A model generated the notes under the pieces. It was not told the DNA's origin. It worked only from the letters and a program-made list of their open reading frames with translations, and did not search any database. Positions 3,138 through 64,000 of a DNA stretch of 64,000 nt are shown here, one piece after another (position 1 is the first letter of the stretch; each line of letters opens with the position of its first letter). The position numbers were made by a program, and so were the translations under genes. Origin of the DNA: Xiphydria camelus (Eukaryota > Arthropoda > Insecta > Hymenoptera > Xiphydriidae); assembly GCA_963678675.1 (NCBI GenBank), contig OY783196.1, positions 14,006,138 through 14,070,137 on the forward strand, in the 5' to 3' direction.

Positions 3138-3140
<3 letters not shown>

Positions 3141-3196
3141 AATTTATTCTCGGTATACTTATTCTAGGTATAACTTGGCTTTGGTAAAACCAGCCC

Positions 3197-3780: not shown

Positions 3781-3782
3781 TA

Positions 3783-4888: not shown

Positions 4889-4920
4889 ACCGCTACTGAA
4901 TGTATCTCCGTTAATGTGCA

Positions 4921-5399: not shown

Positions 5400-5686
5400 T
5401 ATTTAAGTGCATTCGAAACAGTCAATTGCAACCACGGTTAATCGGCATCACCTGTATTTCGTTATTTCAAATATATCATTAGTTGTATAGTGAGTGCAGT
5501 GTCGAATCATTCCATTAACCGCTCGGTCTCGCTCCTTTTCACCACGCGTCGAACTCAATTCACCGTGGAATCCTCAAAATCCGCCTAGCGGTATGTTTGG
5601 CCAGTAGTCGTGTCACGAGCGAGTGTCTGCGGGATTTACGACCCCGCGGAGATCTACCAACGATCACACGGCTCCCAAACATTTTC

Positions 5687-5704
5687 TGGTTCTTCGAGCC
5701 GGAT
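5687..5704 (+). promoter_or_regulatory. Primer binding site, tRNA-Tyr-like
   Basis: TGGTTCTTCGAGCCGGAT begins five bases after the LTR end. It complements the 3' end of eukaryotic tRNA-Tyr (acceptor strand CTCGAAGGA-CCA and the adjacent T stem) with one mismatch in 18. This fixes the LTR boundary and shows that transcription runs on the + strand. Confidence 0.8.
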
Positions 5705-5872
5705 TCCTCCCTATGGAATCAATTCAGTTCGCGAGTACTATCAACGGTATCGTGTAAATCAAGTGTCGCGACCGCGTAATAAAACCAGTGTCTCGTGCGG
5801 GCAGTGTGTAAATCAGTGACCTTTTTTCGAATAATCATTTCAAGTGTCTATCGTGCATGCATCAGTGACATC

Positions 5873-9670: not shown

Positions 9671-9682
9671 ACGGGGGGAGTA
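9671..9682 (+). promoter_or_regulatory. Polypurine tract
   Basis: ACGGGGGGAGTA lies directly before the 3' LTR (TGTTCC at 9683). It is the expected plus-strand priming site. Confidence 0.8.
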
Positions 9683-18236: not shown

Positions 18237-19130
18237 TATAGGACGCAACGTAGCAACTGGGCGCGACGCAACTGTTAGATGAGAGAGAGAGTGCGTATGT
18301 TGCTTCCTCGTACGATTGAAAAAGATAACACTACTAAAATGCCGAGAAAAAGCGACTACGATGGAATAGGTACTGGCAGTAAACTTTAAATTACTTTAAA
18401 TTAAATATAAAATATTAAAATGTGAGAAAGATTTTTCAAATATTTTCAATTAAATATATGGATGGGAAAATATTAATATTTCTATCAGAATAATAATTTG
18501 TTAGTGATAATTATTCGATAAATTTTATCTATTCTATAAAAATACCACAGCAAACAAACAGAAAAATTACATTTTTTAGAGAGCGATAAAAAATCATTAA
18601 CAAATTGGCGGTGTAAAAAAACTTTATTATAAAACAATGAATACAATAACAATCTTTACAAATATTACAACAATATTACAACAAATACAATATTATAGCC
18701 TTCCAAAAATTTGTATATTGCTGGAATAAGAGAGTGCTCAGATTTTATATAACAATAACCTAAACAACGCAAAGACTCCAAGAAGAATTAAAAAATAGAT
18801 GATTGGCGATGACTACATGTATACCTGGAGATGAGCGTGGCGGCCACCCCATGAGCCATCGCCTCGACTGTCTGGTTATCACATGTTCGGAAAAAACTTT
18901 AACTCGAAAACCCGGTAAGAATGTTTTGCCCCTTTTTCTGTACTTTCGAGAAAGAGCCATAAAGTAATAAATTGTCCCTTCCGGACAGGCAAAAATAAAA
19001 ATGCAAAGTTAGTTGAATCTTGAACGAAAATAATTTTACCAGGAATCCAACAGTAATTGATTGAAAAACGTGAGGAATCCACGATTCCAGACAAAGGAAA
19101 CGCAGACAAAGGAATCCATAAAAAGGGATC
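18237..19130. other. Region before the CsRn1-like gag; no LTR found
   Basis: AT-rich sequence with a short (GA)n at 18281. A polyadenylation-like TTTATTATAAAAC on the plus strand at about 18628 could be the end of a minus-strand transcript. A 5' LTR would be expected here, but nothing resembles the downstream terminal sequence at about 23250-23569. Confidence 0.45.
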
Positions 19131-19133
19131 CCA

Positions 19134-21869
19134 ATGGTGCTGGATCATTCACCACTGCCGGAACAAGCTCAACCACGAATCGGAAAAGCTCAAACAGCCA
19201 ACCAACAAGAAATGGAACAACAAATTATCGAGTTACAGGCACAACTGCAACAATTAATGCAGAACCAACAGGATGAAAATCAACCCAGACAAATCGATCA
19301 GGTAGCAGCCGTAACAACGTTCAAACTTGCCTCATTCTGGAAAACAAAGCCAATTCAATGGTTCCAACAAATAGAATCTGTCTTTCGACGCAGAGGCATT
19401 CGTAGCGATCAAGCGAAATACGACGCCGTAATCGAGGCGCTCGACTCGAACGCTATAGAGGAAATATCAGACATTGTTGGGAACCCACCTGAGACAGGTA
19501 AATATGATCACCTAAGAGAAAACCTAATTAAACGTTTCACAGAATCATCCGAACGACAACTTCATAAACTGCTATCAGAGATAGAACTAGGTGACAAAAA
19601 ACCGACACAATTACTACGAATCATGAGAGAACTTGCAAACAATAAGGCATCAGACGACTTATTAAAGACAAGATGGCTCGATCTGTTGCCATCAAACACA
19701 AGGAACATACTAAAGGTCGTCCGAAATGCATCACTCACAGAATTAGCAGACATAGCCGACAGCATCCTAGAAAATCACAGCAGCAGCTCATACGTCATGG
19801 CAACGTCAACAAGCACCAACAACAAAAGAAAAGCCGACACAGGAAAAGAGACGAAGGAGGACAGTGATAACTCACGCATCAGCAAGACAGAAAGTGACAT
19901 CAGCAAACTAAAAGATGACATCAACGAATTGAAGGATCTCGTGAAACAAATGTTAAATATGCAAACAGATTTGAATGCGAGACGCCAAAACTACAGCGAC
20001 AGGAGTCGACCGAGATCGCGATCGCAATTCCGCACCCACAACGAAGAAGGCAAATGTTACTTCCACACTAAATTTGGCACAAACGCATATAAGTGCATTA
20101 AACCGTGCACGTTCACCTCAACCAATGCAGCAGCAGCAGCAACAACAACAACAACGAATCCCACCTCAGCAGGGAAACTGATCACGCTGTCGTCAACAAA
20201 GGCGGTAGATGACAGCGACAACAACAACATCCAAGAGCACCGCCTACACATATACGACCGCAGAACAGGACAGAAATACCTAGTCGACTCCGGATCAGCA
20301 GTATCCGTAATACCAAAACAATCTATCAAAGAAAAGATGAACATAACATCATTCAAATTATATGCTGCCAATTCAACGGTAATAAATACCTACGGATCAC
20401 GCCTACAAACACTAAATCTTGGTCTCCGACGAGAATTCCGATGGCCATTCATAATCGCAGACGTGAAGACAGCCATAATTGGCGCAGACTTCATCGGATA
20501 CTACGGTCTACTCATAGACCTTCAGAAAAGGAAGTTAATCGACCCCCTAACAACCCTTGCTACCGCAGGAGACATACAGCGAGCCGATGAACACAGCATC
20601 TCCACGGTACAAACCAGCCAGGAAACGAAAAATGTACAATATTGGGATTTACTAAAACAGTACCCAAGTGTTACAACACCGACATTCAAATATCGAAACC
20701 AAAACTCACCAGACGTCGTACACCACATTATCACCCAGGGACTTCCAGTGCATGAACGACCACGCAGGCTAGCGGGTGAGAAATTAAAAGCAGCACAAAA
20801 CGAAATCAACACAATGTTAGAGCAAGGCATCTTACGACCATCGAACAGTCCATGGGCCAGCCCTCTACACATGCAAAAGAAAAAATCCGGAGATTGGAGA
20901 CCTTGTGGCGATTACAGAAAACTAAACGCACAGACGATTCCAGATAGATACCCACCGCCACTCATCGAGGACCTATTTCCAAAGCTGCACAATAAAAAAG
21001 TATTTTTAACACTGGATCTAATGAAGGCATATTACCACATACCAATGGCCGAAGAACACATCCAAAAGACGGCTATAACTACCCCCTTTGGACTCTTCGA
21101 ATTTCTAGTCATGCCATTTGGTCTAAAAAACGCGACACAAACGTTTCAAAGATTCATTGATTCAATATTTCGTGACCTAGACTTTGTATACTGCTATATA
21201 GACGACATCATTATAATTTCAGAATCACACGAAAAACACAAGAAGCATCTGCGCATCGTACTTAACCGACTGCAGGAATTCAATCTGATAATCAACGCAA
21301 ACAAATGCTCATTAGGACAGACCGAGGTAATATTTCTTGGATACACGATCAATCAGGAAGGCTACAAACCACCAAAAGAAAAAATTGAAGCAATAACCAA
21401 CTTCCCGAAACCACAAACGATCCAAGAGCTACGACGCTTCATCGGCATGATGAATTACTATAGACGATGTATTCCTCACGCCGCAGAACTACAAGCGCCA
21501 CTCACCGGTTACTTACAGGACTCCAAGAAAAACGACAAACGAAAAATCATGTGGAACCCCACATCTGAAAAAGCTTTCGACGAATGTAAGCAAAGTTTAG
21601 CAACAATCACCACGACTACATATCTCTCGCCGTCAGCAGAACTGGCATTGTCCACAGATGCATCCAACGTAGCGATAGGAGCATCGTTGGAACAACTCAT
21701 AGACAATCATTGGATACCAATCGGATTCTTTTCAAGAAAACTCAGCACAGCAGAAAAAAATTACAGTACGTACGATCGAGAATTATTAGCCATCTATGCA
21801 GCAATCAAACATTTTCAACATATACTGGAATGCCGCAGATTTGTCATAAAGACGGACCACAGCCTATAA
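19134..21869 (+). pseudogene. CsRn1-type Gag-Pol, first part (frameshifted)
   Basis: The 911-codon frame starts with Gag (FKLASFWKTKPIQWFQQIES), goes through the CHCC-type motif CYFHTKFGTNAYKCIKPC (about residue 307), then aspartic protease with active site VDSGSA (residues 384-389) and RT with fingers VFLTLDLMKAYYHIPMAEEH and the catalytic YIDD at residues 688-691. RNase H begins at STDASNVAIG (about 840). It ends early within the RNase H TDH motif because one base appears to be missing near 21862-21868; the rest continues in the next frame. ATG 19134 is the first in this frame; a longer or different start cannot be excluded because the leader is unclear. Confidence 0.88.
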
Positions 21870-23422
21870 CATACGCATTTAAACAAAAAGCGGAGAAAGC
21901 TTCACAACGACAACTACGACAACTTGACTACATTTCACAACACAGCACAGACATCATACATGTGAAAGGCGACGAAAACACTGTAGCAGACGCACTGTCA
22001 AGAATCAGCACCATCAACATGCCAACAATACTAAGCGCACAACTGATACAATCGTCACAAGAAAAAGACGACGAATTACAGAGTCTGTTGCAAAATAATT
22101 CCTCACTAAAACTACAAAGACTACAGGCAGAACCAAATGGAAACATTTACTGTGACATTTCTACGAACTATGTCAGACCATACATACCGAGAGAACTCCG
22201 AAAAATCGCCTTCGACACAATCCATGGGCTATCACACCCCAGTGGACGAGTCACAGCAAAGGAACTAAAAGAAAAATACATTTGGCCAGGAATAAAGAAA
22301 GATGCGCTGAAATGGGCACGAGAATGTCTCCAATGCCAGCGCGCAAAGATACAGCGATACAATCGAATCCCACCAATCAACATCGACGTGCCAGATGCAC
22401 GCTTCAATCATATAAACATCGACATTATAGTTATGCCACCAATAGACAATCACAAATATTGCCTAACAATTATCGACAGGTTCTCGAGATGGCCGGTAGC
22501 AGTACCACTTAAAGATGCCACTGCTCCCATAGTCGCCACGGCATTATTTAACAACTGGATCAGCTTTTATGGAACCCCGCTAACAATCACCACCGACCAA
22601 GGACCACAATTCGAGTCAGCATTGTTCAAAGCTCTCGCAAAATTCATCGGAGCAGCACGCACTCGAACTTCGCCATACCATCCCGCATCAAACGGCATGA
22701 TTGAACGATGGCACAGAACACTAAAAGCAGCATTAATGTGCAAACCAGATGTCCCTTGGATCGACGTACTTCCATCAGTCATGCTTGGTCTACGAACCAG
22801 CCTAAAAGAAGATTTACAAGCATCGCCAGCTGAATTATTATACGGCACGCAACTCAGAGTCCCTGGCGAATTCTTTGTACATCAAGATCGTCCAGCAGAC
22901 CCACAAGTATTTGTAGAACGGCAGCGAGAAATAATGCAGAATATTCGACCAACACCCACATCTCATCATAACAAGACACGACTATTCAAATTAAAAGATC
23001 TCGACAACTGCACACACGTATTTCTACGATGCGACCACGTGAAAGCTCCACTTGAACCACCGTACATGGGACCTTACCATATCATCGACAGAATCACAGA
23101 TCGACTATACAAAATCAACGTAAATGGTCAAGAAAAAAATATTTCTGTCGATCGCCTAAAACCAGCATTTACTACCCACGACGACGTGCAACAAGACCTG
23201 GAAGCACCCGCTGAACCTCAGACGACTCAGCCGGTGCTCTCTAGGGGGGGAGTGGCTGTGGAGTCTCCGCAGCCGCTTCCAACCAGCGACAGCAGCCGAC
23301 CCACAACGAGCGACGGCGTCGCCACCAGCAGACGACGGAAACAGGTCTTTCTCCCGCGCGAAGAGGACCTGCCGCCTCAGTTGGAGATCCGCCCAAAAAG
23401 CGCGCGCGTGATCTCATTTTGA
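21870..23422 (+). pseudogene. CsRn1-type Pol, second part (RNase H end and integrase)
   Basis: This is in the frame that opens at 21710, but only the part after about 21860 is homologous. It holds the end of RNase H (LDYISQHSTDIIHVKGDENT…ADALSR). Integrase follows, with the H-H-C-C zinc motif (HGLSHPSG…CLQCQRAK) and the DDE core: D in INIDIIVMPP, D in ITTDQGPQFES and E in NGMIERWHR, all intact. The C-terminal tail passes through the purine tract and ends at 23422, in or near the 3' LTR. The single frameshift upstream is the only visible lesion in the coding part. Confidence 0.85.
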
Positions 23423-24083: not shown

Positions 24084-24367
24084 TATTTAAGGCCGGTTTT
24101 ACCAACATGGTATAAACGCCGTATAGCGCTATACTGAGAATAACCAGTACGCAAGCGTTTTACCACGATGGTATAAGTCTGGAATAGGATAAACTTTGGA
24201 ATAAATGCAGGGATAGCTAATCCGGCAGTTTCAGCGCTGGATAAGCTAGCTATCCTCGGTATAACCTAACTTTTTGTTTGCGTCTTTATTCTTCCGTGAC
24301 AGAATCAGAACCGTGACAGAATCATAATAATTGTTATTAGTTGTGAAATAGAGTTGAATGATGTGCC

Positions 24368-24713
24368 AGTTTTCGAATCATCATCTGATGATGAAATTGA
24401 CGTCTTACAAAGAATGAGAAATCTTAGGAAAATACGTGCCCGGTAAGTAAATAAAGGATACCTATACCTAATAATGTATAACCAATATCTAATACAAAAC
24501 TATTCCAGAGTTGACTATTTCGAAGAATACAATGGTTGTAGAATTCTTCACTTGATTTCGTTTGGAAAAACAAACCTGTCAGAGATTATTGGGCCAAATA
24601 CGACATCGCATTGCTACGAGGTCGCAAAGAAATGCAGCAATTTAGCCAGCAACGAAATTATTGCCAACTTTAAGATTTCTTGTTTCGGGATCAATGCTAA
24701 TTACTGTAGGTAA
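24368..24713 (+). pseudogene. Harbinger transposase N-terminal relic, copy B
   Basis: A first exon encoding an acidic segment (SSSDDEIDVLQRMRNLRKIRA) ends at a good donor (GGTAAGT, about 24442). A 60-bp intron ends with TTCCAG, and the next exon starts RVDYFEEYN. The Harbinger helix block follows (FRLEKQT… in the other frame), with the stop TGA inside it and a frame change before it. The exon ends at GTAATC. The DDE catalytic part is absent. Confidence 0.65.
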
Positions 24714-24757
24714 TCGTTTTTATCATAATGTAAAAACTTTTAATTAGTTATTATTAT

Positions 24758-25311
24758 ATGCCGCCACCTCTGCAACCTCCGACGACTCCTAACATCTCGA
24801 GGAGAGCTAGTTCACAGGACTACAAGTTCGTCGATCGGCATAAACCGCCACTGATCTCCCAGAAATCAATGGGTGACATACTGAAAAACATCGACAAAGT
24901 CAAATTGAAACTCGTCACAAGGTACGATTAAACACTTTTATCGCGGTAAACTTTTAATTCACCAGGAACAAAGAGGAGTTTCGCATTGTCAGAATGTCGT
25001 GGCTGCGAAGGATTGATTTTGTTCACAGTGGGCTTTTAAACGTGTTTTTCAGATCGTCGGGTGGGAGACCTTTGCGAGCCAAACGAGAAAATAGCTCTTA
25101 CAACGACCTTCAAGAGATCTTACGGAAACGATATATCGCAATGCAATCGCCGGACAGTAGAAATTCCACCGCGACGTTGACGCTCGATGATTCATTCTAC
25201 ATTAAGAACTCGATGATGCTCAATTTCTCTGGGTCGCAGCATTCGCGTCGGACGGTGCTCCGAGGAATGGCTATTGTAGCCTTGCTTTCCACGCGTGAGA
25301 TTGAATCATGA
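24758..25311 (+). CDS. Captured MTFR1-like gene fragment, copy B (two exons)
   Basis: Exons 24758-24921 and 25053-25311 join in phase across a GT…CAG intron to give 140 codons. Exon 1 encodes a proline-rich start (MPPPLQPPTTPN) and the motif KSMGDILKNIDKVKLKLVTR. Exon 2 continues SSGGRPLRAKRENSS and LQEILRKRYIAMQSPDSRNS. This order, 'M(A/G)D(I/V)LKxxxKVKL…RSPGGRPxRxK…DPxxILxxALKxxF', is the conserved C-terminal part of mitochondrial fission regulators (MTFR1/MTFR1L/MTFR2). The N-terminal part of a full MTFR protein is missing. The intact splice sites indicate genomic capture of the host gene rather than a retrocopy. This copy has the longest reading frame of the three; expression is unknown. 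Confidence 0.72.
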
Positions 25312-25553
25312 TTATAATTAGATAGATAGATAGATGATTTATTTCGGCTTTACAGCCACGAAAGGAGGTTGGTTATACAACTCTATAGGTACATTTACTC
25401 TTAATATAGGCTAACGCAAAAAATATTTCATATAACATAACTGATAATAAAATAAAATAACTATAATATAATACCTAATAATAAGATAAAACAATTATAA
25501 TATAGTAACTCATAATTTATTCCCCGTCTTTGCCATTTTGCCCCCTCGACGCT

Positions 25554-27763
25554 TTAGCTTTTCCGCTTCCTCCTCTTTTCCAGCTGTTTTAACCATTCCC
25601 TAGCCTTCTCGCTACCTTCCTCATTTAATAGCTCTTCCACTTCCAAATCTACTCGCGGCATCTCAACGCAATCCCTGATTAGGTGCTCCAACGTGCCCCC
25701 TTCTTTCTCGCAGAGCTTACATTTTCTTCTCTCCTCATCCATCCAGTATTTATTTGCCTCTTCCTCGTTTCCGCATCTTGCTCTAGCAATCCTTCTTAGG
25801 TCCCCTCTCTCTCCTACTCTCCTGAGGTAACTTGCCCTGTCATTACTACACAAGTATCTATACCTCTTGTTATATCTCGCTCTCCATATTTTGTCCCGCT
25901 GTTCCTGCATTTGTGTCTCGCAATCTCTATCACTCAACGCTATACTCGCTATACGTCCTTCTATCATAGCCGCAATCCCTGCCTCGCTATATCCGCATCT
26001 CCTTAGATATTCGTTTCTCTCCTCTACCGATCTGGTGCCACTTACCTTCCCCTCATCTCTTTCTCGCAGACATTCCTTTATCAGCTCGCTAGCTCCTTCT
26101 TCCCTTACTCTTTCCTCAAATCTCATCGCTCTTTTCCCCGCCCTTATCCTAAGTGGTTTCCTCTTTGATTCTTCTATCACTATATATCCTGGCGTCGATC
26201 TCTCTAGCCCTAGCACCCACTTTATATATTTTCTTTGTAATTTTTCTAACCCTTCCCAGCTTCTCCATCCCCATATTTCTACTCCGTAGCTAACTACACT
26301 CCACACCAGTTTATCAAACAGCCACATTCTCCTTATAAAATCTTCCCTGAAAAGACGCTCCCCAATGCCCCAGACTTGCCTAAGTACTAAGTTGCCCTTT
26401 TTCACTAAGTCCCCGATCTGTCCTGCTTTATCTCCATTCTTTTTAAATACATAACCTAGATATTTGAATTCCTTCACCTCCTCTATTTCTTTACCTTTCC
26501 ACTTCCACCTTGTCTTTCTTACCTTCCCTCTCCCTTTCTTACATACCATTACTTTCGACTTATCCACATTCAAGGTCAGCTCCTTTTCTGACAAATACTT
26601 TTGCAAGACCCACATCATCCCTTTAAGCGCTTCTTCATTTTTTGCGAGCATCACAATATCGTCAGCATAGGCGAGGTGGTGAATTCTACTTTCTCCCAAT
26701 TCCACTCCTCCTACCATGCCTCTTTCCAGCGTCTCTTCCAGGTCTGCTAAGAAGATTGCAAAAACCGAAGGGCTCAGCGGGCATCCTTGCCTCACTCCCT
26801 TTTCCGTCCAGAAGGGTTCTGAAGCTTCTCCCTCTATCAATATGGTTACCTTTGTCTCCTCGTAGATCTCTATGCATCTTTCTATTAGTCCTCTTCTAAC
26901 TCCTCTCTGTTCCATCGTGCTCCACATTCTTTCCCTGTTCACCGTGTCAAAAGCCGCCTTAAGATCGACAAAGAATATACAAAGGCCCTCCTTATCCTTC
27001 TTTTCCTCTCTGTCTACTATGTGCTGCAGCACGTACACGTTGTCGAGCGCCGATCTCTTCTCCCTGAAACCTGCTTGTTCCTCTGGTAGAATTCCTTTTC
27101 CCTCTATCTCCGTCCTCAGTCTCTTTTCCAGAACCGCCGCATATATCTTGTACGCCGTAATGTGATTCCTCTGTAGTTAGCCGGGTCATCCCTGTCTCCT
27201 TTTTTATAAATTGGGAAGATAGCGCCCTCTCTCCAACTTTCTGGAAAGCCTTCTCCTCTCCACACTCTCTTCACTAGTTCCTTTAATTTCTTTCTGGCCT
27301 TACCTTCGCTGAATTTCCATGCCTCGTTCGGAATCCCATCCGTACCTGCCGCCTTATTTCTCTTCATACTCTTTATTTGCTCTTCTATCTCCTTGTCCGT
27401 TAACTCTTCTTCAGTATCTCCCTCTCTGTTTCTTCTCCTTCCTTTCCCTTCATGCCTCTGGTTTCCCTCCAGCAATTTCATGAAATGTGCTCTCCACTCC
27501 TCGGCTTGTACTTTATCGCTGGGAATCCCTTTCTTTCTCCTCCCTTTATTTACATATTTCCATACGTCTGCTGCTTTTCTCACGTTTTTAATCTCTTCCA
27601 ATTCCTTGTTCTTCAGCTGCGTTTCTTTCTGCTCACATAACTTCTTGAACTCCATCTTCTTCTCCAGGTAGTCCTCTCTCCGCTTCCTACCTTGCCTCCA
27701 TTTTCTGTATGCTCTCGCAGTCTCCCTTTTCTTTCTCGTACACTCTTTATCCCACCAGTTTTT
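25554..27763 (-). pseudogene. LINE ORF2, reverse transcriptase part
   Basis: From 27763 to about 27166 the frame equals that of the endonuclease and includes the RT start (NKAAGTDGIPNEAWK and DPANYRGITL). A short deletion near 27165 then shifts the frame, and from 27038 a 494-codon frame has FVDLKAAFDTVNR, KGVRQGCPLSPSVFAIFLAD, the catalytic YADD (26658-26669) and the FKYLGY motif. A C-terminal CKLCEKEGGTLEHLIRDC zinc motif follows, and the frame ends at 25554. The conserved RT residues are intact; only the stop and the frameshift inactivate it. Confidence 0.88.
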
Positions 27764-28867
27764 CTATCCAATTATCCTTCTTTTTAATCGTATCATTTTC
27801 TTCGGCATGCCGGTGACCACCCTTGACTGCAGCTCCTCCCAGTCTTCCTCGATGTCCTTGCTCCCTAAGTCTAACTCCCTTGTATAATCCTTATACTGGG
27901 TAATTGTATTCTCGTCCCATATGCAGATTTGCTTAACTTTCTCTTCCTCGTAATACACTTCTCCCCCCTCTTTCAGTTCAATTATCAGCGGCTGGTGGTC
28001 CGACTCCGTCCTTTCTCCTACTCGGAAGCTTCTTATTTCATTGAAGGCTTCCCTATTCGCCATGGCGTAATCGATTACCGTTGGTCCTCTACCTCCTGTG
28101 TACGTATACTCTCCTTCCTCATCGCCTACAAAATTTCCGTTGAGTAGGATCCAGCCTTTCTCCTCAATTAACTTTCCCAGCTTCCTGCCCTCCTCATTTC
28201 TTATTTCGCCCTTCGATTTTCTTGCCATTTCTTCTCCATCAAAACCCATCAAACTCGCTATACCCATCCTGGCATTAAAATCCCCCGCAATTACAAGGTT
28301 TTCTTCTTCCGCTTCGCTCACTTTCTCTTCGAGTGTTTTCGCTAATTTCTCCACTCCTTCGCTACTATAGACTGCGATAGCTCTCCATTTTTCTTTGGCA
28401 ATCCTGAAACTTACCTCCATTACGCCTTCACCTTGTATTCCCTCTCTTTCTTCCCTCTTTTTGGCTTCAACCACGCTTTCTCTCACTCCCATAATGATCC
28501 CTCCTTTGGCCTTTCCCTTCAGTTTCTCCCTCCTAGCATGCTGGCTGCTCCATACAAAACCTTTCGGCAAAACCTCCTTTAGTTTACTCCAATCCTTCTC
28601 CTCTATCCACGTTTCTATTAGTGCTACAGTGTCGAAGTCCTGAACGAATTTCCAAAAGTCTCTATCCTTCCTCTTTACCCCTGCAACGTTCCAGAAAAGC
28701 ATTCTTCGTTTCCTTACATCCGTTCCCCTCTTTCGTGGCTCGCCTAAAAATCCTGGTTGTTCTCTCCCCATTCTTCCCTCTGCCATCTTCTCCAACGCCC
28801 ATTGCTCCACACTTTCTGGAAGCCAACTTTGATCTGTACTCCTCTTCTCCTCTCCAGCCTCGCCCAT
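27764..28867 (-). pseudogene. LINE ORF2, endonuclease part
   Basis: This 367-codon frame has the AP-endonuclease order: LFWNVAG, LIETWIEE, GDFNAR (about 28265) and SDHQPL (about 27985), all with the catalytic N, E, D and H. It ends at TAG 27764-27766. The reading frame continues uninterrupted afterwards into the RT part, so this stop is a nonsense change rather than a true end. Confidence 0.82.
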
Positions 28868-29649
28868 TCCAAAATCTCCCTCTGTATTTCTCTCTCCTTC
28901 CTTGTCAAATCATGGTCGATGAAGATTGGTACATTGCCCAGGTTACTCTTCTTTTCCATGATCCTCTTCTTTGTCTCCCAGTCTTCCACCCCGACGATCA
29001 CCATCTTCCTCTCTCTGCCAACAATCTTGGCCCACTTCAATTTCGCTTCCACCTTTACTTTTTCTTTCAGGAATTTTTCCACTTCATTTTTTCCATCTTG
29101 TCCTTCCAGCTGGAGCCCTCTGATCACAATGTTATTTTTCCTTAATTCTCTATCCTTCTGCTCCATGAATCTTTCTATCCGCTCTGTGCCCGCCTCGCCT
29201 CCACCTGCTCTCCCTTCTAGCGCTGCTATTCTCCTTTCCATTCCCTGCATCTTTTCTTTCATCTCTGCTTTTTCCTCCTGCCATACTGCTTGCCTTTCCT
29301 CTATCTCCCTCCTTATCCCTCCGATACTCGCCGCTACCTCTTTCCCTATTTCTACCTTCATCTCATTGAGATCTCCTTTCAATTCTTCAAACCGGCTTAT
29401 CAAGCTCTCGAACATTTCCTCGATACTTTTCCGTTTTGCTTCTTCTCCTTCCTTACTTCTTGTGCCCTCATCCTCTTCCTCGCCATTTTCTCGCCTCTCT
29501 TCGTTTCTCTTCGCCTCTCTAAGCATTACGCCTACATCCTTTTCAGACCTCCTTGCTCTCTCCAGTTGTTCCGCTTTGGATGGCCTTCCGACTCCTTTCG
29601 CGCTTCCCTCCGCCTTCTTTCCTTCCTTGCCTTTCACATTACCCGCCAT
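28744..29649 (-). CDS. LINE ORF1 protein (coiled coil, RRM-like)
   Basis: The 301-codon frame starts at 29649. A charged coiled-coil region (about residues 60-165, rich in E/K/R with heptads such as FEELKGDLNEMKVEIGKEV) is followed by LRKNNIVIRGL. This is the start of the RRM-like fold found in ORF1 proteins of mammalian L1 and several insect LINEs. The basic C-terminus ends near RWRRWQREEW. It should bind the element RNA and act as chaperone. ORF2 begins in a different frame before the stop, overlapping by about 120 bp. Confidence 0.8.
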   Translation of the reverse strand: MAGNVKGKEGKKAEGSAKGVGRPSKAEQLERARRSEKDVGVMLREAKRNEERRENGEEEDEGTRSKEGEEAKRKSIEEMFESLISRFEELKGDLNEMKVEIGKEVAASIGGIRREIEERQAVWQEEKAEMKEKMQGMERRIAALEGRAGGGEAGTERIERFMEQKDRELRKNNIVIRGLQLEGQDGKNEVEKFLKEKVKVEAKLKWAKIVGRERKMVIVGVEDWETKKRIMEKKSNLGNVPIFIDHDLTRKEREIQREILEWARLERRRGVQIKVGFQKVWSNGRWRRWQREEWGENNQDF

Positions 29650-30439
29650 GCTTGCGCGCCACCTCGTCGTCCGTCTTTCGCACTTGCTCCGTCCGCCTCT
29701 TCGTCCGCTGGCTAAACTTTCCCTTCTCCTCCTTCCCCGTGCCCGTTTCGCACTCCTAACCTCACTCGCTTTCTCAAGGAAATTATTTCCTATTTCTCCT
29801 TTCTTACCCTTCTCGCCGCATCACGATCTTGTCCCTAGTCTCTTCTCCACACTTTCTTATCCCTTTCTTCGCCTCTCCCTACCTTCTTCTTTAACTATTT
29901 TCTCACTTTTTCGGCCTTTAAGACACACCACTCTCGACACACGTCCGTTCGCACTCGCGTCCCTAACCTTCCCCCCCAATCATGATTATAATTTTATCTG
30001 AGTCAGAGCTCTGGAGAATCAAAATTAATAGATCTCTCTTCTTTTTTATAAGTGAGTCTTTCCCTGCTAGGTAATTTCGCGCGACACATTTTATATTATA
30101 GTTCTTTTTTAATAGGAGGATAGAAGCTCATAGAAACGTCGGGAAAATTTTGTTCTCCCTTCGCTCTTTTCCTAGAAAATGCAAGTTTAAATTTAAAATT
30201 TAAGCACGCGGGTCTACAATCGCGAGAATCTCAACGGTATCCAATAATATCAACCAAAGAAGTCATCTACCATTGCATTGTCTTCTATAAGTAACATTTA
30301 AATTTATCTATGTAGGTATTATACCTTTCTTCAATTCGCGTGATTGCAGAGCTTTCGGGAGCAGAAGTGATACATCCATCGTATAATTTAAATTTTGTAC
30401 CGTTTTTATATGATTCAATAAAAAAATAGTATAACCATT

Positions 30440-35843: not shown

Positions 35844-36019
35844 TATATGTAATTTTTAAATAAATTTTTTAATAAACAATTCATTGTTGTATTTAACGGA
35901 TTGAAATGCGCGCGGAAAAGCCTAAGTGGTAAAGAAATCTTTACTCATTGGAAAGAATTTAGGTAAATATTGAAATTTTTCCTATTTCATAAAAATATAA
36001 TAAACTTCACCAACTTCTA

Positions 36020-36230
36020 CACCCGCGTGCACGGCTTCTAATCATGGTGACTTTCTAAAATGTCATTTTTAAACATACTAGCCAATGAACAATTAATTCT
36101 CATGCTTTCATTAACGAGAGTAGACGCCACCATAGCTAATGAGGGCATGAGAATTAATTGTTCATTGGCTAGTATGTTTAAAAATGACATTTTAGAAAGT
36201 CACCATGATTAGAATCCGTGCACGCGGGTG
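36020..36230. mobile_element. TACACCC-family hairpin MITE, copy 1
   Basis: TA-flanked near-perfect hairpin of 211 bp with ends CACCCGCGTGCACGG, then GGTGACTTTCTAAAATG…ACATACTAGCCAATGAACAA. The copy at 39963-40173 is nearly identical and in mirrored surroundings. Ten family members are visible in the window. Confidence 0.9.
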
Positions 36231-36559
36231 TAGGTAACATTTATCCTCCCGGTAAAACGCTTACCCACTAATCTAATTAGGGCCGGTTTTACCAACACGG
36301 TATAAACGCCGTATAGCACTATACTGAGAATAACCTGTACGCAAGCGTTTTACCACGATGGTATAAGTGTGGAATAGGATAAACTTTGGAATAAATGCAG
36401 GGATAGCTTATCCGGCAGTTTCAGCGCTGGATAAGCTAGCTATCCTCGGGATAACCTAACTTTTTGTTTGCGTCTTTATTATTCCGTGACGGAATCACAA
36501 CCGTGACAGAATCATAATAATTGTTATTAGTTGTGAAATAGAGTTGATTGATGTGCCAG

Positions 36560-36902
36560 TTTTCAAATCATCATCTGATGATGAAATTGACGTCTTACAA
36601 AGAATGAGAAATCCTAGGAAAATACGTGCCCGGTAAGTAAATAAAGGATACCTATACCTACTAATTTATAACCAATATCTAATACAAAACTATTCCAGAG
36701 TTGACTATTTCGAAAAATACAATGGTTGTAGAATTCTTCACTTGATTTCGTTTGGAAAAACAAACCTGTCAGAGATTATTGGGACAAATACGACATCGCA
36801 TTGCTTCGAGGTCGCCAAGAAATGCAGCAATTCAGCCAGCAACAAAATTATTGCCGACTTTAAGATTTCTTGCTTCGGGATCAATGCTAATTACTGTAGG
36901 TA
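36560..36902 (+). pseudogene. Harbinger transposase N-terminal relic, copy C
   Basis: Exon 1 encodes SSSDDEIDVLQRMRNPRKIRA and ends at a GGTAAGT donor (about 36632). After a 67-bp intron with a TTCCAG acceptor comes RVDYFEKYN. The frame from 36752 reads MEKQTCQRLLGQIRHRIASR and LLPTLRFLASGSMLITVG, the helix region that precedes the catalytic domain in HARBI1-type transposases ('FRLSKxxxxxLLxxI…LLxxLRFLAxGSxxxxVG'). A stop and frame change precede it, and the gene ends at a donor-like GTAATC with no DDE exon beyond. Confidence 0.75.
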
Positions 36903-36947
36903 ATCGTTTGTATCATAATGTTAAAACTTTTAATTAGTCATTATTAT

Positions 36948-37390
36948 ATGCCGCCACCTCTGCAACCTCCAACGACTCCTAACATCGCGAGGAAAGCTAG
37001 TTTACAGGGCTACAAGTTCATCGATCGGCATAAACCGCCACTGATCTCCCAGAAATCAATGGGCGACATACTGAAAAACATCAACAAAGTCAAAATGAAA
37101 CTCGTCACAAGGTACGATTAAACACTTTTATCGCGGTAAACTTTTAATTCACCAGGAACAAAGAGGAGTTTCGCATTGTCAGAATGTCGTGGCTGCGAAA
37201 GATTGATTTTGTTCACAGTGGGCTTTTAAACGTGTTTTTCAGATCGCCGGGTGGGAGACCTTTGCGAGCCAAACGAGAAAATAGCTCTTGCAACGACCTT
37301 CAAGAGATCTTACGGAAACGATATATCGCAATGCAATCGCCGGACAGTAGAAATTCCACCGCGACGTTGACGTTCGATAATTCGTTCTAG
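36948..37390 (+). CDS. Captured MTFR1-like gene fragment, copy C (two exons)
   Basis: Exons 36948-37111 and 37243-37390 join in phase (AG|A) to 103 codons. The motif KSMGDILKNINKVKMKLVTR leads directly into SPGGRPLRAKRENSS and LQEILRKRY after splicing, which supports the intron call. The frame stops at TAG 37388-37390, 37 codons earlier than in copy B, because of one base difference. Copy A has the same early stop. The proline-rich start and the SPGGRP block are the conserved MTFR C-terminal region; the N-terminal half is missing. Whether it is transcribed is unknown. Confidence 0.72.
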
Positions 37391-38804
37391 ATTAAGAACT
37401 CGATGATACTCAAGTTCTCTGGGTCGCAGCAATCGCGTCGGACGGTGCTCCGAGGAACGGCTATTGTAGCCTTCCTTTCCACGCGTGAGATTGAATCATG
37501 ATTATAATTTTATCTGAGTCAGAGCTTTGGAGAATCAAAATTAATAGATCTCTCTTCTTTTTTTATAAATGAGTCTTTCTCTGCGAGGTAATTTCGCACG
37601 ACACATTTTAGATTATAGTTCTTTTTTAATAGGAGGATAGAAGCTCATAGAAACGTTGGGAAAATTTTGTTTTCTCTCTTCGCTCTTTTACTCAGAAAAT
37701 GCAAGTTTAAATTTAAAATTGACGCACGCGGGTCTCTAATCGCGAGAATCTCAACGGTATCCAATAATATCAACCAAAGAAGTCATCTACCATTGCATTG
37801 TCTTCTATAAGTAACATTTAAATTTATCTAGGTAGACATTATACCTTTCTTCAATTCGCGTGATTGCAGAGTTTTCAGGAGCAGAAGTGATACATCCGTC
37901 GTACGATGTAGAGTATGAAAAAATTTTGGATTTGCATTGATACACTTTTGTAAGATACCTCGGCATTAGACATCAAGTCGTACAACGCTCTTTGTATACT
38001 TTTTAGATAGGGTCGCGTATACTTAAAAAAACGATAACATTGTACCGCTCTATGTAATCTCAGAGTAATGTCACCGCGTGATAAATCTTAAGTTGTAGCG
38101 ATTTAAAAGTTTATAGATTTTAGAATATATTTTGTCCGATACGAGATTTGGATCAAATGGTGCAATTTTACGTTGTAATTACTATTATTGTGTGACGACC
38201 CTTATAGTTTTTTGAGACTGAACACACTCTTGTTGGTGAGATATCGAATGTTTGGACGTGTTTTGTACCTGATGCTTTTATCGACGACTCGAAAATAAAA
38301 GTTATTATTACGAAAATATAAATATATTGTTATAGATATCTTTTATTTACCGGGCACGTATTTTCTTTGGATTTCTGATTCTTGGTAATGCGTCAATGTC
38401 ATCATCAGATGATGATTAAAAAACTGGTACATCAATCAACTATTTCAAAATTAATAACAATTTACCACAACGATCAGGTTATGATTATGTCATGAAAGAA
38501 TAAAGACGTCAAAAACAAAAAGTTAGGTTATACTGAGAATAACAACTCCGAATTTCATTTATCGCGCCGGAACAGCTGTCAAAACGACCAAATGTCATGC
38601 GCAGTACGTACTTCTTACTACCAACCTAAAAATAATTTTAGATGGCCAACGCTTATACCTGGAATAGTTATCCCAGGCAAACTTGGAGCTGGTAAAACGC
38701 CTGCGCTTTATACCAGGTATAAAGAAGAGAGAGAGAGAGTATAAATTTATCCTCGCGGTATACTTATTCTAGGTATAACTTGGCTTTGGTAAAACTGGCC
38801 CTTA

Positions 38805-39617: not shown

Positions 39618-39960
39618 GATAGGCTGGCCAAAGCAGTACGTAGATGGCAGCAGTGAAATCAGACACCCCATTTTAACCGCGCAAATACAGATGATAGTAT
39701 TAAAAAAAAAATTTAGATGCAATTTGGAACTACACACTAAGAAACCATGTTGTTTTGAGATTTACTCCAATAAATTGATAAGTACCCGAGATGGTTGTAT
39801 CCAGGGAAGGTTATGTTTTTAATTTTTAATTTATAAGTTACAACTCGGTTGGTAATACGACAGAAATGGTGTTGCTCTCACTAGCGCCAAAATTTGTTAA
39901 ATCCGCCACCAGCCCTCCTAATTGGTGGATAAGCGTTTTACTGGGAGGATAAATTTTACC
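39618..39960. other. Spacer; end holds an inverted 45-bp block
   Basis: The block GGTGGATAAGCGTTTTACTG with GGAGGATAAATTTTACC (39918-39960) is the inverse of 36231-36276. With the two flanking TACACCC MITEs it makes 36010-40190 a mirror-symmetric structure. No gene seen. Confidence 0.5.
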
Positions 39961-39962
39961 TA

Positions 39963-40173
39963 CACCCGCGTGCACGGATTCTAATCATGGTGACTTTCTA
40001 AAATGTCATTTTTAAACATACTAGCCAATGAACAATTAATTTTAATGCTTTCATTAACGAGAGTAGACGCCACCGTAGCTAATGAGGGCATGAGAATTAA
40101 TTGTTCATTGGCTAGTACGTTTAAAAATGACATCTTAGAAAGTCACCATGATTAGAATCCGTGCACGCGGGTG
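39963..40173. mobile_element. TACACCC-family hairpin MITE, copy 2
   Basis: Nearly identical to 36020-36230 and TA-flanked. Sequence outside it (AAAAGTTGGA) mirrors the left flank of copy 1. Confidence 0.9.
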
Positions 40174-40260
40174 TAAAAGTTGGAACAACTGGCCCTAAGA
40201 ATCTCTGTTGTACATTTCCCTAAACTTGTCCAGTTCGAATGTGCGACAGTGAAACTCTTA

Positions 40261-45045: not shown

Positions 45046-45047
45046 TA

Positions 45048-45264
45048 CACCCGGGGACACGGTATCTGTCGCTGGTGACTTTTTTTAAACGTTATTTTTA
45101 AACGTACTAACCAATAATTAATAATCCTCATGCTTTCATTAACGAGAGTAGACGCCACCGTAGCTAACGAGCGCATGAGAATTAATTATTCATTGGTTAG
45201 TACGTTTAAAAAAAAAATAACGTTTAAAAAAAGTCACCAGCGACAGATACCGTGTCCCCGGGTG
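45048..45264. mobile_element. TACACCC-family hairpin MITE, copy 4
   Basis: The ends CACCCGGGGACACGGTATC and inverse are TA-flanked. The arms share GTCGCTGGTGACTTTTT and ACGTACTAACCAAT with other members, and the loop CATTAACGAGAGTAGACGCC is common to most copies. Confidence 0.88.
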
Positions 45265-45279
45265 TAAGTGTTGTACCTA

Positions 45280-45490
45280 CATCTGAGGACACGAAATCTG
45301 TCGTTGGTGACTTTTTTAAATGTTATTTTTAAACGTACTAACCAATGAACAATTAATTCTCATGCGCTCATTAGCTATGGTGGTGTCTACTCTTGTTAAT
45401 GAAAGCATGAGGATTATTAATCATTGGTTAGTACGTTTAAAAATAACATTTAAAAAAAGTTATCAGCGATAGATTTCGTGTCCCCGGATG
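45280..45490. mobile_element. TACACCC-family hairpin MITE, copy 5
   Basis: Same family, with ends changed to CATC(C/T)GAGGACACGAAAT. It lies 15 bp from copy 4, and the loop is in the opposite orientation to copy 4. Confidence 0.86.
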
Positions 45491-45556
45491 TAAGTGAAAT
45501 AAAGCGGCCACGTCTCGGAGGGTCGCCGCTGCCGGGCGTGCCTATACGAACGCATA

Positions 45557-50140: not shown

Positions 50141-50794
50141 AGGCCCTTGCACACTGGACGCGTCAAGCGCCAAGCGTCAAGCAGCAACCAATGAGTGCAG
50201 AGATATTTCGTACGTGACGCTTGACGCTTCCCAAAAATTGAACGGTGTTGAATTTTGGGCTAGCAGCGAGCAGCGGCCTAGTTACACCCGTGCTCACAGA
50301 TCCTGTCGCTGGTGACTTTTTTAAATGTTATTTTTAAACGTACTAACCAATGAACAATTAATTCTCATACCCTCATTATCTACGGTGGCGTCTACTCTCG
50401 TTAATGAAAGCATGAGGATTATTAATCATTGGTTAGTACGTTTAAAAATAACATTTAAAAAAAGTCACCAGCGACAGAATCCGTGAGCATGGGTGTACAA
50501 ACTAGCCTAACCTCGCATTTGGTTCAGATTGGATTTGATATTTTACGTCGATTAACATTTCATGTGTAAAAATGGAAAAAGAACAATCAGCGATGGAGAT
50601 ATAAAATTGCCAAAATGATTAATTTTCGTTTCCATGTGAAGTGATATACCTTGGGTGAAGTACTACGAAAATTTCAAGGTTGTAGTTTTGGCACGCTGAA
50701 GCGATCAGTGTGAATGGTCACCAATCCAAGCAGCAAGCAGCAAGCGCTCGCTGCTCGACGCTTGGCGCTTGACGCGTCCAGTGTGCAAGGGCCT
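50141..50794. mobile_element. AGGCCCTTGCACACTGG foldback with nested TACACCC MITE, copy 2
   Basis: TAA on both sides (50138-50140 and 50795-50797). It contains the TACACCC MITE 50285-50495 at the same internal site as copy 1, and the whole composite is inverted relative to copy 1. Confidence 0.87.
50285..50495. mobile_element. TACACCC-family hairpin MITE, copy 8 (nested)
   Basis: The ends CACCCGTGCTCACAGATCC and inverse; the loop is in opposite orientation to copy 6. Confidence 0.87.
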
Positions 50795-60178: not shown

Positions 60179-61615
60179 ATGTCAGATTCTGAGAATAACC
60201 CCACAAAGCACACTAAAAGAAAAATCCCAGTAATACAATTACCACAAACTCCTACACGAACTTCCACAGATTTTAGCGACAGTTTTCTAGAAACCTCCCT
60301 AACAACCATAGGTCGCCCAAGTATCGACAATTCAAATCACTCGAATACAACCATGGCAAACAATCAAAGGATTTCTCTTAAAACAGCAATAGAAATTGTA
60401 CCGCGTTTTAATGGCCAAAATATACCTTTAGGCGATTTTCTCGAAGCATGCGAGGAAGCGAAAAATATGCTACCACGCGAATCGGAATCCGACTTAGTTA
60501 AATTAATCCTTACCAAATTAATCGGCGAAGCGAAACGCTGCAGTGTAGGGCAAACATTAGCATCAGTAGATCAATTAACAACATTTTTAGAAGAAATATA
60601 CGCCCCTGAAAAAACTATTCATCAATACTATGGAGAATTGAGCTACATTTGCCAGTATCACAACGAAAACGTCATAACATACTTAAATCGAGCTAGAGAA
60701 TTAGCCAAAAGAATTACCGACGGTCACAGAATAGAAAATCGTATAACCGACGAAAATTTCGGAGAAGAAGTAAAGAAAGATTTACTAAAATATTTTATTC
60801 GAGGTTTAAATCCAGATATAAGATGCAATATGAGAAAAGTAGATAATCTCAAAAGCGCACGAATTAAAGCAGTAGAACTCGAACGAACGTTAACACGCGT
60901 GGAACAAATGCGAGGTAGAGGACCACAAAATTCTAACGACCAATTAACTCCTACAACAAACAGCCAAATTATTAAATGTCAAATCTGTAATATAGAAGGT
61001 CACACAGCAAATCAATGCCCGATTAAAAATAAAGACAATTTCAGAAAAATAGGAACAATATGTCAAATATGTAATAAAAATAATCACACCGCGGACGTTT
61101 GTAGATCGCGACCACAGAAAATAAATATCGTTCAAACCGAAATTCCAACTTGTCAAATATGTAAACGAAAAGGTCATACAGCAAACAATTGTCGATTACT
61201 ATCCAAAAACATCAATTCGCAAATGTCTTGTCAAATATGTAAAAGAAATAATCATACGACAGATAACTGTCGTCAACGCTTTAAAAAGTTCACAAATGTA
61301 GATATATGTCACTTTTGCGGAAAACCAGGCCATAAAGCAATCGTTTGCAGGAATATAATAAATAACAAAAATTCAAATCGAAATTTCAATAACGAGAATA
61401 GACCTCAAATAAAATGTGATTATTGCGGAAAATTTAATCACACGACAGAAAAATGCTTTCAAAAACAAAGAAATAATATGCAACAATTTCAAACGGGAAA
61501 CTCCTACAGTTCCCCATCACAGGGCGCTGCATGGGGAACGAACTCAAATACTCAAACGCGTCCTATACACACAATCCAACAAAATCAAAGCCAAATATCC
61601 GATCATCAACAGTAA
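60179..61615 (+). CDS. Gag with six zinc knuckles
   Basis: A 478-codon frame starting at ATG 60179. A capsid-like part (residues about 60-260; LKTAIEIVPRFNGQNIPLGD, then LTKLIGEAKR) is typical of gypsy/297 Gag. From about residue 263 there are six CX2CX4HX4C motifs: CQICNIEGHTANQC, CQICNKNNHTADVC, CQICKRKGHTANNC, CQICKRNNHTTDNC, CHFCGKPGHKAIVC and CDYCGKFNHTTEKC. Most Gags have one or two. The first four share CQIC(K/N) and probably came from tandem duplication. The product forms the particle and binds RNA. It ends 114 bp past the frameshift site and overlaps pol. Confidence 0.92.
   Translation: MSDSENNPTKHTKRKIPVIQLPQTPTRTSTDFSDSFLETSLTTIGRPSIDNSNHSNTTMANNQRISLKTAIEIVPRFNGQNIPLGDFLEACEEAKNMLPRESESDLVKLILTKLIGEAKRCSVGQTLASVDQLTTFLEEIYAPEKTIHQYYGELSYICQYHNENVITYLNRARELAKRITDGHRIENRITDENFGEEVKKDLLKYFIRGLNPDIRCNMRKVDNLKSARIKAVELERTLTRVEQMRGRGPQNSNDQLTPTTNSQIIKCQICNIEGHTANQCPIKNKDNFRKIGTICQICNKNNHTADVCRSRPQKINIVQTEIPTCQICKRKGHTANNCRLLSKNINSQMSCQICKRNNHTTDNCRQRFKKFTNVDICHFCGKPGHKAIVCRNIINNKNSNRNFNNENRPQIKCDYCGKFNHTTEKCFQKQRNNMQQFQTGNSYSSPSQGAAWGTNSNTQTRPIHTIQQNQSQISDHQQ
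61495..61539 (+). promoter_or_regulatory. -1 ribosomal frameshift signal
   Basis: The heptamer GGGAAAC (61495-61501) is read in gag frame as G GGA AAC, the X XXY YYZ form used by, for example, type D retroviruses. After a 7-base spacer, GTTCCCCAT (61509-61517) pairs perfectly with ATGGGGAAC (61531-61539) around a 13-base loop. The pol frame is -1 relative to gag and is open from 61477, just upstream. All parts of a classical signal are present. Confidence 0.85.
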
Positions 61616-64000
61616 ATCTAAGTCAAGAAAGTAAAGTTCCAACAGTTCGCGTGGCCCCTGCTAATCTATGTATCCCGGTAACCCTAATGCTTGATACAGG
61701 AGCCGGTCCAAATCTTTTAAAGAAAAGAGTTAATAGTGCCTCAAATTTAGTAGATCATAGTGAGATCGTCCAGTTAAGCGGGATTACGGCCCATAAGGTG
61801 ACGACCTTAGGCCGAATTTCGATAAATGTTTTAGGTTGCAATACCTTCTTTCATTTAGTACCGGATGATTTTCCGATCGAACAAGACGGTATACTAGGCT
61901 CAGATTTCTTTATAGATAACGATGCTAAGATTAACTACGCAGGGAATTGTTTGGAAATCAAAGGACACAATGTCCCTTTCGAGACTGGAGAAACTATTGT
62001 TGTACCGGCAAGGGCAATCTCAACAATTTACATTCGATTAAAACCAACGAACTTAAAAGAAGGATACATACCGCGATTAAAAATAATCGACGGAATATAC
62101 CTCGGAGAAACACTAGTATCAAATAATAACGGCAAAGCATATTTAAAAATATTCAATACTACTGAAGAAGAAATTGAAGTACTAATCCCAACGTTAGAAC
62201 TATACGCGTACGAGGAAAAATTAAATAATAAAGTCAAAGACATTATTAAATCAAATGAATCAGATTATAATGAAATAAAAACCTATTCTAGGGCAAATAA
62301 ACGGACAGATCACAGTATCGCGTTAGAAGACCTTCATAGAATAGAAGAAATAAATAACGAAATAAAAACCTATTCTAGGGCAAATAAACGGACAGATCAT
62401 AGTATCGCGTTAAAAGACCTTAATAGAATAGAAGAAGTAAATAAAATAACAGAAAATGTTATTAATAATTCAAACCGTAACAAAAACACAGAAAGAATAA
62501 AACAAATAAAAGAATTACTACGTCTAAATCATTTAAATGAAGAAGAAAGAAAAGAAGTCGAATATTTGATCAAATTAAGTGAGGATAGATTTCATGTACA
62601 AGACGATTATTTAGAAGCAACAAACGTATTAGAACATGAAATTCCAACATTAGATGAGTTACCAATTAATAAACGTCAATATAGATTTCCTCCAATTCAC
62701 AAACAGGAAATCAATAAACAAGTTAAAGAACTATTAGAAGCAGGAATAGTTAGACCTTCTCAATCACCTTATAATACACCACTTTGGATAGTCCCTAAAA
62801 AGAAAAAAGCTGAGTCAGATGAACCACGTTACCGACTGGTATTAGATTTCAGATCGTTAAATGAAAAAACAATAGGAGACTCTTATCCACTGCCTAATAT
62901 AGTAGATATATTAGATCAGTTAGGTAGAGCGAAATATTTCTCAGTATTTGACTTAGCCTCAGGCTTTCATCAAATAAAAATGAGCGAAAAAGATCGCCAT
63001 AAAACCGCATTTTCCACACCATATGGCCATTACGAATTTAATCGCATGCCTTTCGGACTAAAAAATGCTCCAGCAACGTTTCAAAGATTAATGGATCGCG
63101 TACTAACAGGTTTACAGGGAATTGAATTATTCGTATACCTTGACGACATTGTAATTTATGCAAATTCCTTAGAAGAACATCGGGAAAAATTTATTAAACT
63201 CATAGAACGACTGCGAACAGCAAAATTAAGTTTACAACCGGATAAATGTGAATTTCTACGAAAAGAAGTTGCATATCTTGGCCACATAATAAGTGAAAAC
63301 GGAGTAAAGCCAGACCCAAAGAAAATAGAAGCAGTTGAAAAATTTCCGATTCCTAAAAATCAGAAAAACGTTAGACAATTCTTAGGATTAGCCGGTTATT
63401 ACAGAAGATTTATTGAAAACTTTTCTAAAATTGCCAAACCTTTATCTAATCTCTTAAAGAAAGAAGGAAACTTTGAATGGACAAACGAACAACAAATAGC
63501 ATTTGATATTTTAAAAAATAAATTATGTGAAGCACCGGTGTTACAATATCCTGATTTTACGAAACCTTTTATAGTCACAACAGATGCTTCGGGGTATGCA
63601 ATAGGCGGAATTTTATCGCAAGGACCAATAGGAAAAGATCGACCCATCGCGTACACCTCTAGAGTATTAACAGATTGTGAAAAAAGATACGATACTTACG
63701 AGAAAGAAGCTCTTGCAATAATTTATAGCGTCACACATTTTCGACCATACTTATACGGAAGAAAATTTACATTAGTCACGGACCATAAACCATTAGTTTG
63801 GTTTCAAAAATCTAAAGACCCTTGTTCTCGTGTTTCAAATTGGAGAGTTAAACTTGCTGAATATGAATTTGATGTAGTACATAAAGCAGGAAAAACAAAC
63901 GTTAACGCAGATGCTTTATCCAGAAATCCAATTTTAACTGTAAATCAGAAACAACCATTTAATGAAGAAAATTTAGAAAGAACAAATAGAGATAGTATAC
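61496..64000 (+). CDS. Pol (protease, RT, RNase H), open to window end
   Basis: It is in -1 frame relative to gag, entered at the frameshift site; no good start codon is needed. The aspartic protease has LDTGAG (about 61690-61707) and ILGSDFF. A linker with an 87-bp duplication (62272-62445) follows, then RT: LVLDFRSLNEKTIGDSYPLP, FSVFDLASGFHQIKMSEKDR, the catalytic YLDD (63136-63147) and FLGLAGYYRRFI. RNase H follows, with TTDASGYAIGG, YEKEALAII and the VNADALSR end (about 63900). There are no stops or frame breaks. RT motifs place it in the gypsy/17.6/297 group. Confidence 0.92.
62272..62445 (+). repeat. In-frame 87-bp tandem duplication in pol
   Basis: Two units (62272 and 62359) encode EIKTYSRANKRTDHSIAL plus RIEE twice, in the protease-RT linker. 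They differ at few positions. The 29-codon length keeps the frame. Confidence 0.95.

Follow-up and report, generated by a model that had tools for sequence, protein, structure and literature searches.

Probable mobilisation of a host MTFR gene fragment by PIF/Harbinger elements in Xiphydria camelus

How does the end of a host gene, intron included, come to lie between the terminal repeats of a DNA transposon, and is it still kept as a gene there? The question is raised by positions 36280-38801 of a 64,000-nt stretch of the Xiphydria camelus genome (the window), where an initial annotation had seen a PIF/Harbinger-derived element with exons of a mitochondrial fission regulator (MTFR) gene. That observation was confirmed as a whole, and we give a probability of about 90% to the reading, made from sequence comparison, that the locus is a non-autonomous PIF/Harbinger element that mobilises a piece of genomic DNA from the MTFR gene of its own host. 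Of the accompanying interpretation, the Harbinger origin, the intron-bearing capture, the MTFR identity and the donor stand, whereas the form credited with the capture, the retention of the reading frame and the idea that such elements are known mainly from plants have to be revised.

The element and its donor gene

The element is 2522 bp long, with exactly the coordinates first proposed. It is bracketed, as claimed, by TTA target-site duplications, read directly from the sequence at 36277-36279 and 38802-38804, and its termini form a 17-bp inverted pair that is 94% complementary, each reported arm taking in one duplication base. The 5' terminal inverted repeat, GGGCCGGTTTTACCAAC, occupies 36280-36296 (here and below, stranded features lie on the plus strand unless noted), and the end motif occurs six times in the 64-kb window at three or fewer mismatches, against 0.16 expected.

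The Harbinger 5' end (36280-36670) differs by 1.5% from L036 and by 4.3% from L037, two transposase-bearing relatives described below; in all such segment distances the copy L003 stands for the 2.5-kb form. This end holds a relic of transposase exon 1 (36538-36632), with ATA in place of the ATG start of L037, and then a GTAAGT donor site. A truncated and frameshifted relic of exon 2 follows at 36699-36904; it lies 15.6-16.1% from L036, L037 and L039 and 14.6% from L038, and apparently comes from a further Harbinger subfamily. The relic of a transposase N-terminus that had been noticed is thereby identified, exon 1 and part of exon 2 matching the gene in L037 and L036. Lacking a functional transposase of its own, the 2.5-kb element is non-autonomous.

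Positions 36907-36947 are the transposon stretch that also directly precedes the captured sequence in L034, L036, L037 and L039. The captured fragment itself, some 1.4-1.5 kb, comprises an exon end, an intron, the last exon, the 3'UTR and its AATAAA. Its first exon (36948-37111) begins within the proline-run exon of the donor, with an ATG at the junction; a GT-AG intron (37112-37242) sits at the donor's position and keeps GT and AG in all 30 fetched copies; the last coding exon (37243-37390) includes the stop codon. The two exons do splice in phase, into a frame of 103 amino acids that starts with MPPPLQPP and ends with TFDNSF. The 3'UTR (37391-38316) is 90% identical to that of the donor, and its AATAAA, at 38294-38299, is likewise kept in 30/30 copies. 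Beyond it lies an inverted Harbinger 5' end on the minus strand (38317-38541), nearest to L038 (9.5%) and some 19% away from the 5' end of the element itself, with which it forms a 230-bp inverted repeat (36441-36670 against 38317-38541, ~80%) that the initial annotation did not contain. The Harbinger 3' end with the 3' terminal repeat (38542-38801) closes the element; in L003 it is 0% from L036 and 3.3% from L037. The 2.5-kb form is thus a mosaic, in which a Harbinger 5' end is followed by an exon-2 stub of another subfamily, the MTFR fragment, an inverted arm nearest to a third subfamily and a Harbinger 3' end. Just 5' of this copy, the window also contains a palindromic element at 36017-36233 (97-bp arms, 97%), with relatives at 39960-40175, 45046-45495 and 50283-50497.

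The donor is present in the same genome. With all three candidates scored, the Mito_fiss_reg domain (PF05308) matched at two places on contig C29, with starts 350 bp apart, and both are parts of one gene; the second match passes two TGA codons because it spans an intron. Translated by eye, the four 3' exons of this gene reach 59.2 bits for PF05308. Element positions 671-1127 align at 84%, intron included, with positions 4290-4783 of the donor locus (L033), and positions 1125-2037 align at 90% with 5006-5943. The splice sites of the captured and donor introns coincide, the donor intron being 37 bp longer, so that the claimed capture of genomic DNA with an intron holds, as does the MTFR identity, at 84-90% identity between gene and fragment. 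That identity rests on the donor gene, since the captured fragment alone gave no Pfam match, unspliced or spliced; a PDB sequence search returned no hit either. The donor 3'UTR also contains a 222-bp palindromic insert (L033 4784-5005) that is missing from the captured version and appears to have been inserted after the two separated. Curiously, divergence of L003 from the donor amounts to 23 of 161 sites (14%) in the first captured exon and 58 of 898 (6.5%) in the 3'UTR. The parent gene lies apart from the element, on C29 as against C20 for the window.

Two other origins for this shared sequence can be set aside. Because host gene and transposon hold the same sequence, the transposon might have supplied the gene with its last exons. 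However, element parts beyond the captured piece find no match at E 1e-3 anywhere in the 10 kb of the donor locus, and since the similarity covers the captured part only, the direction was from host to transposon; moreover, the PF05308 matches take in an exon outside the captured part, and coding constraint is seen on the branch that combines donor and shared changes. We therefore reject the reverse direction, which we regard as wholly improbable. A processed MTFR retrocopy around which a transposon landed would suit a fragment that ends 17 bp past AATAAA, but the junction carries no poly(A) tail, the intron is retained and aligns to the donor, and the relatives L034 and L037 run on along the donor for 163 bp beyond the 3' junction of the 2.5-kb element. 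The kept intron leads us to reject this origin as well, its probability being close to nil.

Copy number, age and the captured reading frame

To what extent has the chimera spread? A whole-genome search with the element, in which the best 38 of 1022 candidates were scored, yielded 30 loci that were cut out and aligned, chosen by their similarity to the copy at 36280-38801. Both ends are present in 23 of the 30. In 19 of these 23 the 3-bp duplications are identical, 18 reading TTA or TAA and one TCA; in L002, L017, L020 and L021 the two sides do not agree, three of these four showing TAA versus TTA. The flanks mostly differ between copies, with common 5' flanks in L008/L009 and L014/L026. That the same junctions recur throughout the genome and that the flanks around the target duplications mostly differ indicates that the chimera moves as one unit.

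In the 357,211,407-base genome, the 5' chimeric junction, searched as 29 bases with up to three mismatches, occurs at 520 sites (264+256) and the 3' junction at 340 (174+166), whereas reversed control sequences for both gave none. The 5' count takes in partial tandem units of transposase-bearing elements and both counts take in fragments, so these numbers correspond very roughly to 340-520 insertions. Among the exact matches listed for contig C1, there are 23 5' junctions, of which 11 pair with a 3' junction at 1281-1283 bp and six at 1370-1373 bp, with three at other distances and three unpaired. A class about 88 bp shorter than the 36280 copy is therefore common, and outnumbers the class of that copy by 11 to 6 among those C1 matches. 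Elsewhere in the genome, copies form clusters at G000:C28:14879986-14888067 and C6:20107306-20114669; in the C28 cluster, two copies follow the same position (~318) of another copy, as though a nested insertion had subsequently undergone tandem duplication.

Three copies had been claimed for the window, and a self-comparison finds three, of which only the one at 36280 is full. Partial copy A (1383-3196, plus strand) corresponds to element positions 947-2522, with no element sequence 5' of its start at 1383 within the window; it breaks exactly at a TTAA preceded by GTACGAGGG, which looks like what we take to be the end of a piggyBac-type insertion. Copy B, also on the plus strand, is split into a first part (24090-25319, element 1-1230) and a second, 3'-truncated part (29978-30383, element 1215-1624) by a LINE on the minus strand (25320-29977), which has a 15-16-bp duplication and matches to RVT_1 (1.9e-36) and an endonuclease (3.7e-8). 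Other repeats are found in the same window: direct repeats of about 1 kb at 4385-5389 and 9680-10648, 95.7% alike and each with about four 120-bp tandem units, resemble paired LTRs that harbour satellite-like arrays, and LTR-type retroelement frames with reverse transcriptase and RNase H lie at 19122-23422 and 61477-63999, the first of them with an integrase domain.

The aligned copies are close to one another, with mean pairwise divergence of 0.6-1.5% in each region, captured or otherwise, and distances to the column majority of 0.2-1.8% in 29 copies and 3.1% in L030. A tree without outgroup, built on the captured part of the 30 copies, the donor, L034 and the two other window copies, has long branches for the donor (0.047) and L034 (0.049), then copy B, L030 and copy A at tips of 0.022-0.026, and finally a shallow cluster with tips of at most 0.011; L030 and copy A group with a support of 86, and many nodes inside the cluster are weak. 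With 7-9% between fragment and resident gene and about 1.3% among the 30 copies, capture long precedes the recent amplification, and we regard it as an old event whose older and recent products coexist in this genome. The same gap could arise if the host of the capture was a different species and the element reached this genome horizontally. We think this unlikely, as the graded series of older and intermediate copies (L030, copies A and B, L034) is what long residence predicts.

Is the piece kept because its 103-aa product, or a fusion of it with the transposase N-terminus, helps element or host? It had been proposed that decay has affected the captured frame less than the transposase, and the frame is indeed open in 27 of 30 copies, with splice sites and AATAAA intact in every one; the last MTFR exon is also in a phase that suits transposase exon 1, as judged by eye, which has a one-in-three chance of arising by itself. 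Among the copies, however, the captured coding part has 42 nonsynonymous, 16 synonymous and one stop change, where a base-specific spectrum of non-coding changes, uncorrected for CpG, predicts 32.9, 15.1 and 2.0 (9 of the 59 changes are CpG transitions), and exon divergence resembles that of the non-coding parts. Changes specific to the pack branch, represented by L003 and including its private changes, are nine nonsynonymous to three synonymous, against three to ten on the donor-or-shared branch (complex codons, eight to one). In addition, the exon 1 ATG is lost, and in L034 and L037 the frame is broken by the loss of a single base where the last MTFR exon begins. Selection on the captured frame is thus rejected both among copies and by branch, and a useful product appears very unlikely. 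The frame is best described as young and apparently unselected, its changes being about as expected without constraint; its openness in most copies fits this youth. The host gene, by comparison, looks constrained.

Transposase-bearing relatives and a recombinant

If the 2.5-kb element lacks a transposase, which element made the capture? In a genome search with the donor sequence (best 40 of 1949 candidates scored), the rank after the donor itself was taken by L034 (C14:6874239-6875758), which shares the 5' MTFR junction of the 2.5-kb element. Upstream it has a DDE_Tnp_4 match of 106.9 bits, and downstream, on the other strand, a Myb/SANT-like frame (PF13873, 32.1 bits); it is 5' truncated, with no 5' end within 3.5 kb more of sequence. 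When the genome was searched with the L034 transposase, all 34 candidates were scored, and eight loci, L034 among them, reached at least 88%. Four besides L034 were compared, those on C1, C17 and C28 being left out.

Transposase sequence and an identical transposon-MTFR junction are common to L034, L036, L037 and L039. The most complete is L037, a two-gene Harbinger that runs from TIR to TIR (1453-7858) within a TCA/TCA duplication. Its transposase has exon 1 with an ATG and an exon-2 frame of 342 aa (DDE_Tnp_4, PF13359, 119.3 bits), and its second gene is a Myb_DNA-bind_5 frame (PF13873, 39.9 bits) in a region with ~395 bp extra relative to L034. The MTFR fragment of L037, internally deleted, lies about 1 kb past the transposase stop, and L037 also contains the MTFR start in two partial copies. 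L036 has a 342-aa frame with the same PF13359 score of 119.3 bits; the Myb/SANT-like frame was not found in L036 or in the 2.5-kb form. L039 combines transposase with a truncated MTFR fragment. We take DDE_Tnp_4 to be the Harbinger type of transposase, and this transposase, the Myb/SANT-like protein, the 3-bp TWA-type duplication and the short TIRs together assign the family to PIF/Harbinger. Tandem units that join transposon sequence, the MTFR exon start and a non-MTFR stretch occur in L034 (2309-2660) and L037 (3171-3241 and 3496-3604); the non-MTFR stretch (L034 2436-2660) is possibly a second captured piece, and the frame across it had no Pfam match.

An approximate empty site is offered by L038, which has the transposase region and both ends without MTFR; the correspondence is only approximate, given a divergence of ~12-18%, 21 extra bp at the site and the absence of the Myb gene from L038. 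At the corresponding site, L038 reads TTAATTAGTAAT, the 21 extra bp, TATTATATAGGGTACC and then AATAAA, and L037 reads TTAATTAGTAATTATTATAT, MTFR plus about 70 bp, ATATAAGGTACC and then AATAAA. This comparison places the MTFR fragment, in transposase orientation, between the transposase stop and a further AATAAA. For the ~70 bp at the 3' edge, no match exists in the donor alignment or in L038, and the capture edges in the transposase-bearing elements have ATAT on both sides.

Because the capture is also found in the transposase-bearing L034, L037 and L039, the capturing form is best read as a transposase-bearing element and the 2.5-kb element as its derivative. The proposal that a Pack-Harbinger family had captured host DNA therefore keeps its Harbinger origin and genomic capture, and is to be amended in that the 2.5-kb form would be derived. 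In a first step, a two-gene Harbinger would have captured the MTFR 3' end downstream of its transposase. Switching among several Harbinger copies during repair may then have produced the 2.5-kb mosaic, which a transposase like that of L037 could move in trans. We expect that capture, mosaic and later exchange would all have come about by template switching in the repair of excision or replication gaps.

Exchange is well supported by the sites of L036, a 4.7-kb element flanked by TAA/TAA with pack-type ends and an L037-type middle carrying the transposase. Informative sites are pack-like up to 2938 with one exception (2906), L037-like over 2950-3263 with two (3061, 3200), L037-like over 5410-5709 with none, and pack-like again beginning with 5753, apart from a single interior site (5851) and three entries where alignments end; the pack form has no part between 3263 and 5410. 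The 3' switch falls at the MTFR intron end, where all three sequences agree, so the captured host DNA itself acted as shared homology. L036 is accordingly the product of an exchange of transposase DNA into a pack-type element; we do not claim an active transposase from it, because it keeps the pack-type ATA start. Its middle also contains a 724-bp insert (4344-5067) with palindromic ends GGGGGTCTTATCG, flanked by TTAA.

We tentatively suggest that the gene end may have become a working transposon part, although the odds are against it: lying behind the transposase with its 3' splice site, its stop codon and its poly(A) signal, it could serve as a putative mobile terminal exon that may trap host transcripts at hundreds of insertion sites, and it could offer the homology through which non-autonomous copies gain and lose transposase DNA, of which one switch in L036 is an example. 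Whatever its role, the element spreads hundreds of copies of a splice acceptor and poly(A) signal over the genome, and possible effects on host transcripts are testable.

Comparison with known gene captures

Gene capture by DNA transposons in animals has so far been described mostly as single or few copies. Here, one genome contains the donor, transposase-bearing carriers, a relative that lacks the insert, both old and young derivatives, and a recombinant, so that the succession from capture through loss of autonomy and amplification to re-exchange can be followed within it.

With a host fragment whose parent lies elsewhere and a chimera that moves as a unit, the 2.5-kb element counts as a Pack-TIR. 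It resembles the plant Pack-TYPE, Pack-MULE and Pack-Harbinger elements (compare PMC8903248), which are likewise non-autonomous TIR elements with gene fragments. The statement that gene-carrying TIR elements are known mainly from plants is too narrow, given Turmoil-1 (PMC2572040) and the 370 Pack-TIRs reported in 55 of 100 animal species by Tan et al. 2021 (PMC8277862). As that study summarises them, 323 of the 370 belong to hAT or TcMariner, and none came from the insect reference genomes screened; four cases were multicopy, the one described having three copies, and Ssk-FB4 has four in fly populations. For such multicopy cases, the same report proposes FoSTeST, a combination of replication fork switching and transposition. 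The likeness to these animal Pack-TIRs lies in the host fragment within the ends of a TIR element and in distinct target duplications; by the copy numbers given there, the present family is about a hundred times more numerous and includes elements that combine the fragment with a transposase. Literature phrase searches at the level of titles and abstract beginnings recognised no insect Harbinger with a captured gene.

Gene capture by an animal Harbinger is itself already known from Turmoil-1 of C. elegans (Sela et al. 2008, PMC2572040), described as holding two captured host pieces in its terminal repeats. Both systems are animal Harbingers with genomic host-gene fragments, which in Turmoil-1 include two exons and the intron of rsp-2. 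Turmoil-1, by the account given there, exists as one full-length element and eight fragments, with pieces of 205 and 131 bp within the terminal repeats, whereas the MTFR fragment measures ~1.4-1.5 kb, lies downstream of the transposase, brings a stop codon and poly(A) signal, and is present in hundreds of copies alongside a relative without the insert and a recombinant. For a gene capture in an animal, the MTFR case is unusually large in scale, and what is new here is the copy number, the gene end with its poly(A) signal captured downstream of a transposase, and the recombinant.
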